Shown piece by piece: positions 18,129 through 56,207 of a stretch of 64,000 bases of DNA. Position numbers and translations under genes: made by a program. The stretch's first letter is position 1, and each line of letters starts with the position of its first letter. Source of the DNA: Alphaproteobacteria bacterium (lineage in GTDB: Bacteria; Pseudomonadota; Alphaproteobacteria; Micavibrionales; UBA2020). The notes under the pieces are model-generated. The model saw nothing but the letters and a program-made list of their open reading frames with translations. It was not told the DNA's origin and made no database searches. The stretch is taken from contig JAEUKT010000002.1 of NCBI GenBank assembly GCA_016794125.1, forward strand, positions 1,093,396-1,157,395, written 5' to 3'.

Positions 18129-18872
18129 ATGACGACAACGCCGATACCTGCGCCCCCAGCAGCCCCGCACGATGACAACGAAATCGCGCGGTTGCGCGAA
18201 TCAAACGCGGCGCTGTCGGAATACGGCCATGCGGTCGCGCATGACCTGAAAGCGCCGCTCCGGCATATCGTGACTTATACCGACATGCTGCGGCAGGTGT
18301 ATGCGCCGAAGCTGGATGAAAACGGTATGAAATTCGTCCAGCGGCTTTCCGTCAACGCCGCGCGCGCGGCGCGGCTGGCGGATGACCTGCTCGCCTATGC
18401 CGAGGCGGCGGAACCCAAAGACGCAAAAACATCGGTCGATCTCAACGCTATATATAATGATATTGTCAACGAATTGCGGGATTTTATCGATGAATCGAAG
18501 GCCTATGTCGTGGCGAACGACCTGCCGCATGTGACGGGTTATCCGTCGCGGCTGCGCCAGTTGTTCGATCACCTGATCGTGAATGCACTACGGTACAAAA
18601 GCGCCGCGCCGCCTGTGATTGGCATATCGATGACGGATATTGGAAACGAATATCTGTTTTCAGTCCAAGATAACGGCATCGGTATCGCGCCGGAATATCA
18701 GGCGCAGATTTTCGAACCGCTGGCTCGGCTTCATTCGCGTGACGAGATAGAAGGCTCCGGCCTTGGCCTTGCCGCCTGCCGCAGCATTGTTGCGCTGCAT
18801 GGCGGGCGTATCTGGGTGGAATCAGCACTGCGCGAAGGCGCGACGTTTTTCTTTACGTTGCCGAAGCCGTAA
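18129..18872 (+). CDS. Soluble sensor histidine kinase
   Basis: About 247 residues from ATG 18129, which has AAAGG upstream; the frame is open 35 codons further 5' but that part lacks a good start signal. The dimerisation/phospho-acceptor helix is YGHAVAHDLKAPLRHIV (His38), a variant common in phytochrome-type kinases. ATP-binding boxes follow: N-box HLIVNALRYK, G1 QDNGIGIAPEYQ, G2 GSGLGLAACRSI. No sensor domain or membrane helix is present, so input must come through protein contact or an upstream partner. It faces the PurA-like gene, overlapping it by 20 bases at the 3' ends, and is divergent from two single-domain receivers, its likely partners. Confidence 0.85.
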   Translation: MTTTPIPAPPAAPHDDNEIARLRESNAALSEYGHAVAHDLKAPLRHIVTYTDMLRQVYAPKLDENGMKFVQRLSVNAARAARLADDLLAYAEAAEPKDAKTSVDLNAIYNDIVNELRDFIDESKAYVVANDLPHVTGYPSRLRQLFDHLIVNALRYKSAAPPVIGISMTDIGNEYLFSVQDNGIGIAPEYQAQIFEPLARLHSRDEIEGSGLGLAACRSIVALHGGRIWVESALREGATFFFTLPKP

Positions 18873-20055
18873 CCGTCGCGCGCGTGGGTCCCCGGCTTTC
18901 CAGCAGCTTTGCAGAGGTTGTGCGTTTCTTCAGCAGGTCAAGGTATCCTGCCATGCGCCCGGTCGTGATGCTGCCGCGGTCTGTATAGGTCACCAATTCG
19001 TCCATCTGGTCGATGCAGGTGACGGCAAGGGCGGGGGTGATGTCAAACCCGCTTCCCGCCGCATCCGACAGGTCATCGCGGATGAATTTCGACAGCGTTT
19101 CTATTTCCAGCAGCGCATAGCGGAGATTTCCCTGCCAGTCGTTCAGCACGTTGGTGTCGTCCTTGATGCCGGCGGCGGGGGGCGATTTTTCCTCGTTCTC
19201 CAGCGGGCCTGCGCCGTGGCGGGTCAGGTAGGCGCGGGTGACATAGGTGATGTCCAATGCGCCGATGACCGCGTCGGCCGCGAGCGGCAGGACATTTTTC
19301 AGGCCGGTGTTGGAACGCGTGACATGCGGGAAAATGCCGCGCGTCTGGTCGAGCATCAGACCCTGTGCGCCTTCGAATACGATGTGTTTTTTCGTATCGG
19401 CAAGGAACGACGCGCCGGCCTGTTTCGTCGTGTGCAGGAAAAACGCCGTATCCTCGACAAATTTATCGACGATGCCCGTCGATGCCACGCGTTCCTGCCA
19501 TTTTTCCGGTAAGTTTGTGAAACCAAGGGCGGCCAGGCGTTGCGGCAGCCATTCTTTTTGTATCTTCGCCAGTTTTGCGCGTAACGCAGCGGTATCGGCA
19601 AGGTCGGTATAAGCAATCGCAAGCGCGGCATGCGTGCAGCGTTCGATGGTTTCGCCAAAACCCATGCCGCAGCTGCCGTGGCGGCCGCTGCCGCGCATAT
19701 CTTCGGCGATCTGGTTGATCATCATGTCATAAGGCGTGGTGACGATAGCGGCGGCATCGACATAAATTTGCGGTATGCCGCATTTGGGCGACAGCACATC
19801 CCATTCCTTCCGGAACAGCAGCGGGTTGCAGACGAAATAACGGCTGAGGAATGTTTCCGCGCCCGCGAAGCTGCCGCTGCCGATATGGCTGAACACATGG
19901 CGTTTGTTATCGGGCGTAACGACGGTATGACCCGCCTGTGCGCCGCCGTTGAAGCGCACCACCACGCTGTCCGCTTGCGCGGCATAATAATCGGTCATCA
20001 GGCCCTTGCCTTCGTCCCCGAAATTCGCGCCGATCACGACATCTGCTGTTTTCAT
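18853..20055 (-). CDS. Divergent adenylosuccinate synthetase-like protein
   Basis: 400 residues, shorter than the roughly 430 of PurA. Conserved: GANFGDEGKG (catalytic Asp14), GGAQAGHTVV (catalytic His43, canonical GGHNAGHT), IVFEGAQGLMLDQ with PHVTRSNT, and RHGAGPLENE. Changed: the IMP-loop RGIGPAY is replaced by RHGSCGMGFGETIER, the aspartate-binding TGRRRR loop by NDWQGNLRY, and the GTP-site TKLD by TCID. It probably activates a purine ring oxygen with an amino donor or related substrate, but likely not the housekeeping reaction. Asp14 is retained, unlike the Ser reported for phage PurZ. A GAGGG site precedes the ATG. It follows a VWA gene on the same strand. Confidence 0.75.
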   Translation of the reverse strand: MKTADVVIGANFGDEGKGLMTDYYAAQADSVVVRFNGGAQAGHTVVTPDNKRHVFSHIGSGSFAGAETFLSRYFVCNPLLFRKEWDVLSPKCGIPQIYVDAAAIVTTPYDMMINQIAEDMRGSGRHGSCGMGFGETIERCTHAALAIAYTDLADTAALRAKLAKIQKEWLPQRLAALGFTNLPEKWQERVASTGIVDKFVEDTAFFLHTTKQAGASFLADTKKHIVFEGAQGLMLDQTRGIFPHVTRSNTGLKNVLPLAADAVIGALDITYVTRAYLTRHGAGPLENEEKSPPAAGIKDDTNVLNDWQGNLRYALLEIETLSKFIRDDLSDAAGSGFDITPALAVTCIDQMDELVTYTDRGSITTGRMAGYLDLLKKRTTSAKLLESRGPTRATVTASAT

Positions 20056-20135: not shown

Positions 20136-21077
20136 TTAGGGTTTCAGTTTGAGTTTGAGGCTCTTCGGCGGCAGGGGGACGTTGTTGTTGGCGATGCCCG
20201 GTTTCATGTGGGAAATCGCGTCCTCCACCACTTTCGCGGTCGGGCCCTGCCAGCTTTTCACGACATCGGCGGGGTCCTTGCCGTTATGGACCTCCAGCAC
20301 CGACACCAGCACCTCGGACAGCTTGTTGTAATCCTTCAGCGAGATGATGTGGTCGGCGGGCAGTACCTTGTTCCAGCTGTCATAGACTTCCTTCTTGTGG
20401 CTCAGCGCGTGATTTCCCTGTTCGACGACCACGTGATAGACGTCGTATTTCGCCGACACCATTTTCAGCAGGTCTTTCGTGCTGATATCCGCCGGCACAT
20501 CGTCGCCAAGGAATTTTTTGATATGGCGCGCCTCCAGCACGGACGGGCATTCCTCGTCGCCGAAGGTAAAGATGATGCCTTTCTTGCCGCGCTTCACGCT
20601 GTCGATATCGGTCTTGGTCGCCGCGAAATACCAGGGCAGGTTATAGCTTTCGAAGCTGTTGCCGCCGCCGCCTTTCTCCAGATAGATGTCCTTCAGCTGC
20701 TCGGCGATGCGGATATCGGCCTCGAACTGCGACGCCTGCAGCGGCGCGCGGTCGTAGTAAACGTCGCCCACGCCCATCACCATGATATGGGGGTCGGACA
20801 CCGGCTGGCGGTCGATGATCGCCTCCACCAGCGTGCCGAGCCCTTCGCGCGCCATGCGGTCGGCAATCACGCCCATCGAGCCCGTGACATCGAGCGCGAG
20901 GATGATCGGGGTCGAATTCGGGTTTTTCGCGGAATCGCGTGATTCACGCACGGTGATGCCGCGCGGGTCCATCGACTGCTTGATGCTCGACTGGTTGAAA
21001 ATCTGGCTGGTGCTTTTGCCGCGGGTGGAGGTTGCGTGCTTGTCCCAGTCGTTGTTGTCCCATCTGCCGTATCCCAT
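20136..21077 (-). CDS. VWA domain protein
   Basis: 313 residues. A von Willebrand A fold occupies about 55-270, with the metal-ion-dependent adhesion motif ALDVTGSMG (Asp63, Ser67) and later acidic residues in FTFGDEECPS. The Asn/Ser-rich N-terminus (SQIFNQSSIKQSMDPRGIT) resembles the substrate-like head of VWA proteins that bind AAA+ or other partners. No signal peptide or transmembrane helix is visible, so it is probably cytoplasmic. The C-terminus is Pro/Lys-rich. It precedes the PurA-like gene by 80 bases, with a hairpin between, and is driven by the 48-bp promoter module at 21130-21177. Function unknown; a regulatory or chaperone role for its neighbour is inference. Confidence 0.8.
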   Translation of the reverse strand: MGYGRWDNNDWDKHATSTRGKSTSQIFNQSSIKQSMDPRGITVRESRDSAKNPNSTPIILALDVTGSMGVIADRMAREGLGTLVEAIIDRQPVSDPHIMVMGVGDVYYDRAPLQASQFEADIRIAEQLKDIYLEKGGGGNSFESYNLPWYFAATKTDIDSVKRGKKGIIFTFGDEECPSVLEARHIKKFLGDDVPADISTKDLLKMVSAKYDVYHVVVEQGNHALSHKKEVYDSWNKVLPADHIISLKDYNKLSEVLVSVLEVHNGKDPADVVKSWQGPTAKVVEDAISHMKPGIANNNVPLPPKSLKLKLKP

Positions 21078-21129
21078 AGTCTGGTCTCCTCGAAGTTGAG
21101 AGCGTTTATATGCTCATTGTGATGATTTT

Positions 21130-21177
21130 TTATTCTCTTATAGAGCATAAGTTATACACTTAAGGAGTATAAGTCAA
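21130..21177 (-). promoter_or_regulatory. 48-bp promoter/operator module, copy A
   Basis: Read on the minus strand it starts TTGACTTATACTCC, continues through TATAAC, and ends TTATGCTC-TATAA-GAGAATAA, an imperfect inverted repeat; TTATACTC is a further direct half-site. TTGACT and TATAAC could be the -35 and -10 hexamers, although the 15-base spacing is short. It lies 53 bases upstream of the VWA start. An ungapped copy with 42 of 48 identical bases lies at 53870-53917. The sharing of half-sites between two unrelated loci points to one DNA-binding regulator. Confidence 0.75.
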
Positions 21178-36643: not shown

Positions 36644-36944
36644 TTCTTTGTCCCTTCATTTATGCCTGCGGGTCGATTCCCGATGGCTGTTAAGATCATT
36701 ATGCTGTGCTTGAGTACAATTAGGCGCGAGAAGCGCCGCGTTGTCAAGGCGCACGAAAACATCCGTATGCTTAACAAGCTGAAAATGAAAGAAAATTTCC
36801 ACGATAATTTATGTTGCGGAGCAGCATTAAAATGCTGATTTCATTATAAGAATATTACGCTAAAAAGGGTTTGACCCCTTGGCTTTGTTTAACATATTGT
36901 ATGACCTGTTTAGGTCAACCACATCTTTCCGGAGACGAAAAACA
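36644..36944. other. Divergent intergenic region between pta and pepN
   Basis: About 300 bases, AT-rich in its pepN-proximal half, holding no gene I can support. It contains a perfect palindrome CAGCATT-aa-AATGCTG (36822-36837) and, closer to pepN, the promoter with its own palindrome described separately. The pta promoter presumably lies near the left end, but no clear hexamers were found on that strand. Confidence 0.5.
36871..36917 (+). promoter_or_regulatory. pepN promoter with palindromic operator
   Basis: TTGACC (36871-36876), an 18-base spacer and TATTGT (36895-36900) form a sigma-70-type promoter. Directly after the -10 lies a perfect inverted repeat TGACCT-gttt-AGGTCA (36902-36917), where a bound protein would block initiation. 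The pepN ATG is 28 bases further on. Confidence 0.65.
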
Positions 36945-52500: not shown

Positions 52501-53721
52501 CTATGCCGTGTAGCCGGGCGCGAATTTCCGGCTGCCGGCATAGAGCATGATGCCAAGCGCAATCGCCCCCAACACCAGAAACCCCGATGCCATCGGGATC
52601 AGCGTGCCGTCATACAGCTGGCCGATCCATGTGCCCAGCACCATCGAAATGGCCGACGATGTCGCCCCGATAATAGCGGATGCCATGCCCGCGATATGCC
52701 CCATCGGCTCCATCGCCAGCGCGTTCAGGTTGCCGAACACAAGGCCGAAGCAGAAAAACAGGATCGCGGCATAACCCAGGAACATCGGCAGCGTCACATC
52801 GCCAAGCGTCAAATTGACGGCCATGAAAATGGCCGACGATGTGACGATGCCGATAAAGGCGCGGATGCAGATATGGCGCATGCCGTATTTACCGACGATT
52901 TTGGAATTCGCCATCGACGCCGCACCCAGGCACAGCGCAAGGCAGCCGAAGTAAAAGGTGAACATCGCGCCCTGATGGAATTTGTCCTGAAAAATCTGCT
53001 GCGACGAATTCAGGTACCCCATGAAGCTGCCGAAGCAGATGCCCATGCAGATGGTGTAGCAAAACGCCACGCGGTTGCCGACCACTTCGCGGAATCCATG
53101 CGCGAAATTTCCGGCGGTGACCGGCACGCGGCGCTCCTTGGGCAGGGTTTCCTCCAGCCGCAGGTAAATCCAGCCTGCAATCAGCAGCGCGTAGAAAATA
53201 TACATCAGGAAAATCGCGCGCCACGGGCCGAAGGTCAGGATCAGCTGGCCCAGCGCAGGGGCGATTGCCGGCACCATGATAAAGATCATCATCACGATCG
53301 ACATCACCCGCGCCATGTCGCGTCCCGCATATTTGTCGCGCACGATCGACACGGTGGAAACATAAGGGCCCGCAACGCCAAGGCCCTGAATCAGCCGGCC
53401 CGCCATCAGCACCTCGAATGTCGGCGCGACATAGCACAGCACGGAACCTGCCAGATACAGCACGATGCCGCCATACAGGACTTTCTTGCGGCCCAGCGCA
53501 TCCGACAACGGGCCCGCCACCAGCTGGCCTGCGCCCATGCCGATGAAAATGCCGCCGATCAGGTATTGCGCATGGTTGCGGTCGGCGAGGTTGAAATAAT
53601 CGGCGACGAAACCCAGCGCGGGCAGCATCGCGTCGATCGAAATCGCGACGATCGACATCAGCAGCGCCATCAACACGGCAAATTCGCGGAAGGAAACTTC
53701 GGGTTTATCGGTCTTGGACAT
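52501..53721 (-). CDS. Bcr/CflA-type MFS drug transporter
   Basis: 406 residues with 12 hydrophobic helices. Motif A between helices 2 and 3 is GPLSDALGRKKVLYGG, and RLIQGLGVAGPYVSTVSIVRD is the typical Bcr/CflA motif C region. Such transporters export chloramphenicol, bicyclomycin or related compounds by proton antiport. It faces the coiled-coil gene (13 bases between stops) and is divergent from the dioxygenase pair; its own promoter must lie in 53722-53870. Confidence 0.87.
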   Translation of the reverse strand: MSKTDKPEVSFREFAVLMALLMSIVAISIDAMLPALGFVADYFNLADRNHAQYLIGGIFIGMGAGQLVAGPLSDALGRKKVLYGGIVLYLAGSVLCYVAPTFEVLMAGRLIQGLGVAGPYVSTVSIVRDKYAGRDMARVMSIVMMIFIMVPAIAPALGQLILTFGPWRAIFLMYIFYALLIAGWIYLRLEETLPKERRVPVTAGNFAHGFREVVGNRVAFCYTICMGICFGSFMGYLNSSQQIFQDKFHQGAMFTFYFGCLALCLGAASMANSKIVGKYGMRHICIRAFIGIVTSSAIFMAVNLTLGDVTLPMFLGYAAILFFCFGLVFGNLNALAMEPMGHIAGMASAIIGATSSAISMVLGTWIGQLYDGTLIPMASGFLVLGAIALGIMLYAGSRKFAPGYTA

Positions 53722-54068
53722 CTGGCTTTGCCTTTTTTTCTTGTTCAGTTTCTTTCATCCGGCCTTTTGTATCAGTCATTCCAGTCTTTCACATATTTAC
53801 AAAAAACGCAACATAAATCGTGCGAAATTCGCAATGTGCTGTTTTCCCTCAAAGATCGGCGAAGGGTGGTTGACTTATACTCCAAAAATATATAATTTAT
53901 GCTCAATAAGAGAATAACGAATCAGGCGGGTTTAAACATTCAATCCCCTGATCCAGCAGGAAAACCGGACAGGACGCGCATATATACGCCGATTCACGCA
54001 TTTCAGGGCGGGTATATTTTACGTTTTACCATAATCCAATTATTCTCGGGCTGATTCAAGGATAACCG
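53722..54068 (+). other. Divergent intergenic region with promoter copy B
   Basis: 347 AT-rich bases between the transporter and dioxygenase genes. It holds the 48-bp promoter/operator module at 53870-53917, reading towards the dioxygenases, which leaves a 150-base leader before their start. The leader contains short hyphenated repeats (CGCATATATACGCCG near 53978) but no riboswitch fold I can name. No gene is supported here. Confidence 0.5.
53870..53917 (+). promoter_or_regulatory. 48-bp promoter/operator module, copy B
   Basis: TTGACTTATACTCC, then TATAAT, then TTATGCTC-AATAA-GAGAATAA; it matches copy A (21130-21177) at 42 of 48 positions without gaps. TATAAT here is a perfect -10. All TTATNCTC half-sites are unchanged, while most differences fall in the A/T-rich spacer, the pattern expected of a conserved operator. 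It points at the dioxygenase pair. Confidence 0.75.
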
Positions 54069-55025
54069 ATGCAAACCGCGCTCCGCCACGCAACATCCAC
54101 CGATACCGGCCTGTCGCATTTCGATGCGCAGGGCGCATTAACGCCCGCGCGCCTTGCCGCGCTTGCGGCGCTATTCGCGGATACCGGTGCGGTGCATGTG
54201 ACGCAGACCGGGCTTGCGACCCGCGCCGACTTGCTGCCGCTGATGGCGGCGCTGGGCTTTGGTGCGGCTGAACAGTTTTCGGCGGGCGGGCGCACCGCCG
54301 CCGCATGGCAGGTGAAATGGGCGGCGCCTGGCCTGCGCCACCTCGATTATTATCCGCCGTATCTGTACCTGCTGCCGAATGGCGAAATCGGGTATCAGCG
54401 CGATTTCCCCACCCGCGTGATGTTCTTCTGCGAAACGCCGCCGGCCTTTGGCGGGCGCACCTTTATCCATGCCGCGAAAAAACTGGAAGCCAACCTCTCG
54501 CGCAGCACGGCAGGGCGCAAGCTGGCCGATAAGGTGCGCGAATACGGACTGACCATTGAAACCGGCTTCATCGACCGTAACCACCCGCAAAAACCGCAGA
54601 ATTATTTCCAGTCATGGCAGGAAAGATTTGGCAGTGACGACCGCGATACGGCACTCGCCGCCGCGCAAAGCCTGACGCGCGAATACGATAGCTGCTGGTG
54701 GCTGGAGGATCAGGGATATCCGGTATTGATGACGCGCATCACGCTGCCGGGTTTTGTGGATGGCTATATGCGCTTTCCGCGCATCGCGGCCGACGGCCCC
54801 GCGCTGAAAAACGGTTTCCGCCGCTATCCCTTCGGCAACGGCGTGGAAATGACGGATGCCGAAAAAGACCTGCTGAAAAACGCCTATACCGCGACGCGAG
54901 AAGGTTACGCGTGGCGGCAGGGCGATTTTATTTTGATGGACAATATCCGCTGCGCCCATTCGCGCGAAGCCTTCGCCGGCCCGCGCGAGGTGCTGGTGGG
55001 CATGGCCGGGCTCAAAAAATTGTAA
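54069..55025 (+). CDS. TauD/TfdA-like dioxygenase paralogue lacking a metal ligand
   Basis: 318 residues resembling Fe(II)/2-oxoglutarate dioxygenases of the TauD superfamily. The segment PTRVMFFCETPPAFGGRTFI and the distal His (H297 in NIRCAHSREAF) are clear. The proximal ligand motif, HNE in the next gene (LLPHNEILYQR), reads NGE here (LLPNGEIGYQR; Asn104 in place of His), so iron binding is doubtful. It could be a pseudo-enzyme subunit, a halogenase-like variant or an enzyme with changed chemistry. The ATG follows CAAGGATAACCG. A 27-base gap separates it from its active-looking paralogue. Confidence 0.75.
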   Translation: MQTALRHATSTDTGLSHFDAQGALTPARLAALAALFADTGAVHVTQTGLATRADLLPLMAALGFGAAEQFSAGGRTAAAWQVKWAAPGLRHLDYYPPYLYLLPNGEIGYQRDFPTRVMFFCETPPAFGGRTFIHAAKKLEANLSRSTAGRKLADKVREYGLTIETGFIDRNHPQKPQNYFQSWQERFGSDDRDTALAAAQSLTREYDSCWWLEDQGYPVLMTRITLPGFVDGYMRFPRIAADGPALKNGFRRYPFGNGVEMTDAEKDLLKNAYTATREGYAWRQGDFILMDNIRCAHSREAFAGPREVLVGMAGLKKL

Positions 55026-55052: not shown

Positions 55053-56207
55053 ATGACCGCACCCGATTCCGCCCTCCGCTTTGCCGATGCCGAACCCGCG
55101 CTGGATATGTCGCTGGTGGCGAACGCGACGGAAAACGAACGCTATCGCATGCCAGATAACGAAGGCCAATGGGCGGAAAACCTGCCGGTGAATGTGTTCG
55201 ATGCGGAAGGCGAACTGACACCCGAAAAAATGACCGCGATCAAGCTGCGCTTCGCAACGCTCGGCACGTTGCAGGTCATCAATACCGGCATCCGTGCCGC
55301 CGAACAGAACGACGTGCCGATGAATATTCTCGAAGGCCTTGGTTTTGGCGAGCAAGAACAGTTCAAATGGGGCGGCCTCACATCAGGGCGCACCAACCTG
55401 AAATATATTTCCAAATGCATGCGCGAAACGGATGATTACCCGAAACATCTTTTCCTGCTGCCGCATAACGAAATCCTGTACCAGCGTTTCATGCCCGAAC
55501 GCCTGCTGTTTTTCTGCAGCCGCACGAATGGGACAGGGCAGGGTGGCCGCACCTTCGCGCATTGTGCGAAAAAGACCGAGGCTTATATCGCGCAATTCGC
55601 GGTCGGCCGCGCGCTGCTGGCGCGCATGAAACAATTCGGCTTCACCATCGAAACCGGCTTCCTCGATGAAAATCATCCGGAAAAATCGAAAAACTATTTC
55701 CGGTCGTGGCAGGACCGCTTCGGCACCCATGACCGCGCCGAAGCGATGAAGGTCTGCGCGGAATCCACGCACCAGTTTGACGAAGGTTTCTGGATGGAGG
55801 AACCCGTCACGGCGGCCGACGGGTCGTCCGTGCCCACGCTGATGACGCGCATCACGATCCCCGCGTTCAAAACCGACGAACGCGACGGCGAAACCTATAT
55901 GCTGTTCCCGCGCATCGCGCTCGACGGCCCGCGCGCGCATAACGGCCACCGCCGCTTCCTGATCGGCGACGGCGCGGAACTGACGCCGGAGGAAACCGTC
56001 ATCCTGCTGCAGGCCTTCATGGCCACCCGTGAAGGACGTTATTACAACGAAGGCGATATCCTGCTGGTCGATAACATCCGCTACGGCCACAGCCGCGAGT
56101 CATACGCGGGCAGCCGCAAGATTTACGCGTCGATGGCGGGCATGTTCTGGACCGACGACGTTGTCGTCGAAATCAATACCGACGACGCTGTCGTCGAAAC
56201 GAAATAG
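55053..56207 (+). CDS. TauD/TfdA-like Fe(II)/2-oxoglutarate dioxygenase
   Basis: 384 residues, a longer paralogue of the preceding gene. The facial triad is intact: H138 and E140 in LLPHNEILYQR, and H346 in NIRYGHSRESY, with an Arg two residues later as a possible 2-oxoglutarate anchor. FCSRTNGTGQGGRTFAHCAK corresponds to the metal-proximal strand. It has an extra N-terminal ~30 residues and an acidic tail (VVVEINTDDAVVE). It should oxidise a small-molecule substrate; none is suggested by the neighbours. An AGAGGACATAG site precedes the ATG, and a terminator follows. Confidence 0.83.
   Translation: MTAPDSALRFADAEPALDMSLVANATENERYRMPDNEGQWAENLPVNVFDAEGELTPEKMTAIKLRFATLGTLQVINTGIRAAEQNDVPMNILEGLGFGEQEQFKWGGLTSGRTNLKYISKCMRETDDYPKHLFLLPHNEILYQRFMPERLLFFCSRTNGTGQGGRTFAHCAKKTEAYIAQFAVGRALLARMKQFGFTIETGFLDENHPEKSKNYFRSWQDRFGTHDRAEAMKVCAESTHQFDEGFWMEEPVTAADGSSVPTLMTRITIPAFKTDERDGETYMLFPRIALDGPRAHNGHRRFLIGDGAELTPEETVILLQAFMATREGRYYNEGDILLVDNIRYGHSRESYAGSRKIYASMAGMFWTDDVVVEINTDDAVVETK

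Follow-up and report, generated by a model that had tools for sequence, protein, structure and literature searches.

Two operons share a pair of tandem palindromes

Within the 64,000-nucleotide stretch of DNA analyzed here (the window), two distant operons with unrelated genes are preceded by nearly the same 48 bp, raising the question of whether a common regulator acts on both and which protein it might be. The reverse complement of positions 21130-21177 aligns to the forward strand at 53870-53917 with no gaps and 42 of 48 positions identical, exactly as a first-pass annotation had noted, and the chance expectation of such a match in the window is ~1e-9 to 1e-4 (a binomial estimate that varies with the assumed composition). 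Absent from that annotation was the placement of the copies on opposite strands, each oriented toward its downstream gene: a VWA-like gene (start 21077, - strand) and the first of two TauD-type genes (start 54069, + strand). Scanning the window with the 48 bp revealed no further copy of comparable quality.

Each 48-bp unit consists of two tandem 21-bp palindromes of the form TTATNCTC-N5-GAGNATAA that lie 22 bp apart and abut a TTGAC -35-like element (Table 1). The elements listed previously, TTGACT, TATAAC/TATAAT, TTATACTC, and TTATGCTC-N5-GAGAATAA, are all present, and none of the listed half-sites differs between the copies. The broader statement that all half-sites are unchanged holds for these and fails for the right arm of box 1, which is GTGTATAA in one copy and ATATATAA in the other. 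The annotation had missed a second palindrome of this form (box 1 of each operon), 22 bp from the first, whose left arm is TTATACTC.

Table 1 Features of the two operons and their candidate operators, with weight-matrix scores for the boxes.
Feature	Position	Strand	Details
PurA paralogue, divergent; second gene of VWA operon	18853..20055	-	PF00709 165.8 bits, residues 6-291 only
VWA-like protein, DVTGSM motif; first target gene	20136..21077	-	no significant Pfam or NCBIfam match
Weak third candidate box, same 22-bp register	21108..21128	-	12.0 bits vs shuffle maximum 12.3; only GAGCATA arm good
NadQ-type box 2 of VWA operon	21130..21150	-	TTATGCTCTATAAGAGAATAA; perfect match; 30.9 bits; 53 bp from VWA start codon
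NadQ-type box 1 (upstream) of VWA operon	21152..21172	-	TTATACTCCTTAAGTGTATAA; one mismatch to TTATNCTC-N5-GAGNATAA; 26.1 bits
-35-like TTGACT abutting box 1, VWA operon	21172..21177	-	-10-like TATAAC at 21151-21156, 15 bp away
Possible further weak NadQ-type box	36699..36719		between phosphotransacetylase-like gene (-) and peptidase M1 gene (+); 15.4 bits; two mismatches
MFS transporter, divergent; common intergenic region with TauD operon	52501..53721	-	PF07690 136 bits
-35-like TTGACT, dioxygenase operon	53870..53875	+	-10-like TATAAT at 53891-53896, 15 bp away
Degenerate box 1 of dioxygenase operon	53875..53895	+	TTATACTCCAAAAATATATAA; three mismatches; 14.7 bits > shuffle maximum 12.3
NadQ-type box 2 of dioxygenase operon	53897..53917	+	TTATGCTCAATAAGAGAATAA; perfect match; 30.75 bits; 152 bp from start codon
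TauD-type dioxygenase; second target operon, gene 1	54069..55025	+	PF02668 43 bits
Paralogous TauD-type protein; second target operon, gene 2	55053..56207	+	PF02668 24.8 bits, below cut-off 27; in protein cluster of gene 1

The motif is enriched in the genome and in its relatives

The annotation had suggested a whole-genome scan, which we carried out with the 21-bp motif, using the reversed pattern as control. The window's genome (3.16 Mb) contains 9 sites at ≤1 mismatch compared to 0 for the control, and 19 compared to 2 at ≤2 mismatches; at three mismatches the counts were 66 and 32, such that half of the signal is background. All five of the other genomes of the genus gave similar results (7-11 sites at ≤1 mismatch and none for the control). 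The sign of a dispersed repeat that the annotation had cautioned about, numerous copies at random places, was not seen, and most of the sites examined in the window's genome are intergenic. Palindromes rich in A and T form by chance more readily than mixed sequence does, and this is the one point in favor of a dispersed repeat or a chance similarity devoid of regulatory function. Against it stand the 9 sites over a control of 0, placement at orthologous genes in as many as seven genomes, and the lack of a third comparable copy in the window. We consider chance similarity exceedingly improbable and rejected a dispersed repeat, which is contradicted by the conservation, the site counts, and the missing third copy. 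The motif is real and the original observation is correct.

The boxes match the operator of NadQ

The NadQ section of a published comparative-genomics study describes NadQ (COG4111) as a repressor of NAD-synthesis genes with a regulon in Alpha- and Betaproteobacteria, nadABC as its core targets, the consensus ttATRCTCannntGAGYATaa, and a DNA-binding domain in common with NrtR (PMC5343134). The motif of the modules equals this consensus, and box 2 of each module deviates from it at one R/Y position (the GAGAATAA arm). When the genes surrounding the sites in related genomes were called and clustered, the most frequent boxed gene was nadA, followed by nadB. Boxes lie upstream of nadA in 13 relatives, where most form tandem pairs spaced by 22-28 bp. 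At six loci, the boxed nadA has as its neighbor a gene for a ~343 aa protein, and the member that we tested carries an NrtR winged-helix domain.

The winged-helix match had first led us to consider NrtR as the regulator. However, the ~343 aa protein matches PDB 7q91, "NADQ transcription factor" (E 2e-78), compared to only E 1e-8 for NrtR (3gz5), and its N-terminal part has no Nudix Pfam match, and NrtR was rejected on these grounds. A NadQ-family regulator is present in all five of the other genomes of the genus. Judged by these comparisons, the predicted regulator of the clade is NadQ, not NrtR, and the regulator of the shared modules is almost certainly NadQ as well.

We next considered the distribution of sites and regulator over 55 genomes. 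Two or more sites were present in 20 of 24 genomes with the winged-helix regulator compared to 4 of 31 without it (Fisher p 2e-7, ignoring kinship). Three related genomes (G010, G012, and G014) retain the winged-helix regulator but have neither nadA nor any box at ≤1 mismatch. A weight matrix built from 29 boxes, all in nadQ-nadA loci of other genomes, ranked the window's sites first, with 26-31 bits for the three good ones (21130, 53897, and 21152) and 14.7 bits for 53875 (Table 1), and the highest score across 40 shuffled windows was 12.3 bits. This result is supporting rather than fully independent, because the training sites were first picked by pattern.

Collectively, enrichment over the control, placement before orthologous genes across genomes, and identity to the published consensus provide good support for the common regulator and multi-operon regulon that the annotation had proposed. 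Its description of the regulon as hidden applies to the targets only, because the regulator is already known.

The nadQ-nadA segment is missing from the window's genome assembly

In the assembly of the window's genome we found no NrtR winged-helix protein, no NadQ match, and no NadA above cut-off. The assembly has 4 contigs and is estimated to be 99.95% complete. A 15-kb contig of a sister genome that carries nadQ-nadABC had no real match in it and is missing as a block; at other loci the DNA of the two genomes is 88-90% identical. COX15 and FlgK, which lie near nadQ-nadABC in the sisters, were also not found, the FlgK search having been run without a positive control.

These findings bear on two alternatives. 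The boxes could be orphan operators in a lineage that has shed the nadQ-nadABC segment and relies on nicotinate salvage, in which case they would be relics and the operons constitutive. The near-complete 4-contig assembly lacking nadQ and nadA is consistent with this idea, as are the nicotinate phosphoribosyltransferase gene present in the genome and a relative (G006) that has boxes and likewise lacks both nadA and the winged-helix regulator. However, a missing block of at least 15 kb that takes COX15 and FlgK with it has the look of a binning or assembly gap; moreover, three perfect boxes remain in the window's genome and the module is still conserved relative to the sisters. We regard relic operators as unlikely. 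An assembly gap is the simpler reading and more probable than a true loss of the regulator, because the neighbors cox15 and flgK are absent too.

Alternatively, the boxes could be used by another protein with the same specificity, whether NrtR, a different winged-helix regulator, or an unrelated one. The assembly contains no NadQ-type winged-helix protein to fill the role, and the DNA-binding domain that NrtR and NadQ have in common would make shared specificity conceivable. NrtR further resembles NadQ in having NAD genes as targets. It differs in its effector domain and, in the cases compared (mycobacteria), in its motif, GTTTTCGA-N7-TCGAAAAC. This difference, the NadQ-like character of the protein beside boxed nadA in relatives, and the lack of an NrtR winged helix in the window's genome make a substitute regulator very unlikely, and NadQ remains the preferred candidate.

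The boxed operons extend beyond NAD synthesis

We then examined the genes that follow the modules. The VWA-like protein has a DVTGSM motif and a predicted alternation of strands and helices; its AlphaFold model is poor (pLDDT 47), and a profile search of its family against solved structures returned only weak, unrelated matches. Its gene is preceded by the module in seven genomes, one of which (G004) has a contig end within it; in six the module is conserved. The PurA paralogue follows it in all five genomes in which the next gene was read. This paralogue scored 139 bits against an NCBIfam purA cut-off of 402 and thus misses the score of a full-length adenylosuccinate synthetase, while canonical purA lies elsewhere in the genome (580 bits). 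In five genomes the paralogue retains D14 and H43 without change, the residues that align with the catalytic Asp and His of PurA.

For the TauD pair, the module is present in three genomes; two sister genomes have box 2 of this operon. The divergent arrangement with the MFS gene recurs in G003 and G004. The window's genome has further boxed genes, among them porphobilinogen deaminase, an aldehyde dehydrogenase, a weakly Nudix-like gene that carries a tandem pair of boxes, and a number of uncharacterized ones. In G002 the nicotinate phosphoribosyltransferase gene is boxed, and its counterpart in the window's genome has a two-mismatch site nearby. The boxed Nudix proteins and nicotinate phosphoribosyltransferase fit a theme of NAD metabolism. 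Separately, a gene pair resembling alcohol dehydrogenase and asparagine synthase is a further candidate NadQ-type target: six relatives (L062, L071, L099, L111, L113, and L124) have two or three boxes at this pair.

Compared to the described NadQ regulon, the system has the same box consensus, the same nadAB core target, nadQ beside nadA, and an orthologous regulator. It differs in that its targets reach the VWA/PurA-like operon, the TauD pair, and others that go unmentioned in the NadQ section of PMC5343134, in that tandem boxes abut TTGAC at many targets, and in that the regulator is absent from the window's genome assembly. The kind of operator was already known; what is new here are the two apparent NadQ targets, the VWA-like/PurA-paralogue operon and the TauD-type pair. 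From sequence, the NadQ regulon seems to be enlarged in this Micavibrio-like bacterium and to include two operons for which no link to NAD had been described.

A proposed model of NadQ-repressed promoters

The annotation had also read the module as a promoter. A scan for sigma-70 promoters with 16-18 bp between hexamers found none in canonical form, because the -10-like TATAAY lies only 15 bp from TTGACT. The promoter reading is nonetheless plausible, because the TTGAC element is conserved: it lies immediately next to box 1 ahead of the VWA-like gene in six genomes, and 10 of 13 relatives have it at the corresponding place at nadA (with an extra base in one of these). In addition, TTGACTTAT is invariant upstream of the VWA-like gene in 6 genomes. 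The GAGCATAA arm of the weak third box recurs in several VWA orthologues.

These features suggest a model in which each 48-bp module is a NadQ-repressed promoter and the organism's nadQ resides in the segment missing from the assembly, a proposal that we consider very probable as a whole. Immediately after the TTGAC -35 element would come two NadQ boxes whose 22-bp spacing places them on one face of the helix; box 1 would sit between this element and the -10-like one and cover most of the latter, with box 2 just downstream. NadQ dimers would bind both predicted boxes, probably cooperatively. The title of a later study (Minazzato et al. 2022, J Struct Biol 214:107917) describes NadQ as Nudix-like and ATP-responsive. 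At high NAD or ATP status, NadQ would cover the -10-like element and block RNA polymerase; upon its release, the VWA/PurA-like and TauD operons would be switched on together with nadAB and the Nudix genes. More tentatively, and as less likely than not, we entertain the possibility that NadQ governs an undescribed nucleotide pathway in Micavibrio-like bacteria, in which the PurA-like enzyme and the VWA-like protein cooperate and are expressed at falling NAD/ATP status alongside the genes for NAD synthesis and Nudix turnover.

With NadQ as the predicted regulator, an anonymous repeat becomes a set of named candidate regulatory sites, and two unstudied operons would be linked to NAD homeostasis. 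The boxes offer a direct clue to the role of the conserved VWA/PurA-like gene pair and provide a list of candidate targets for the function of NadQ in bacteria related to the predator Micavibrio.
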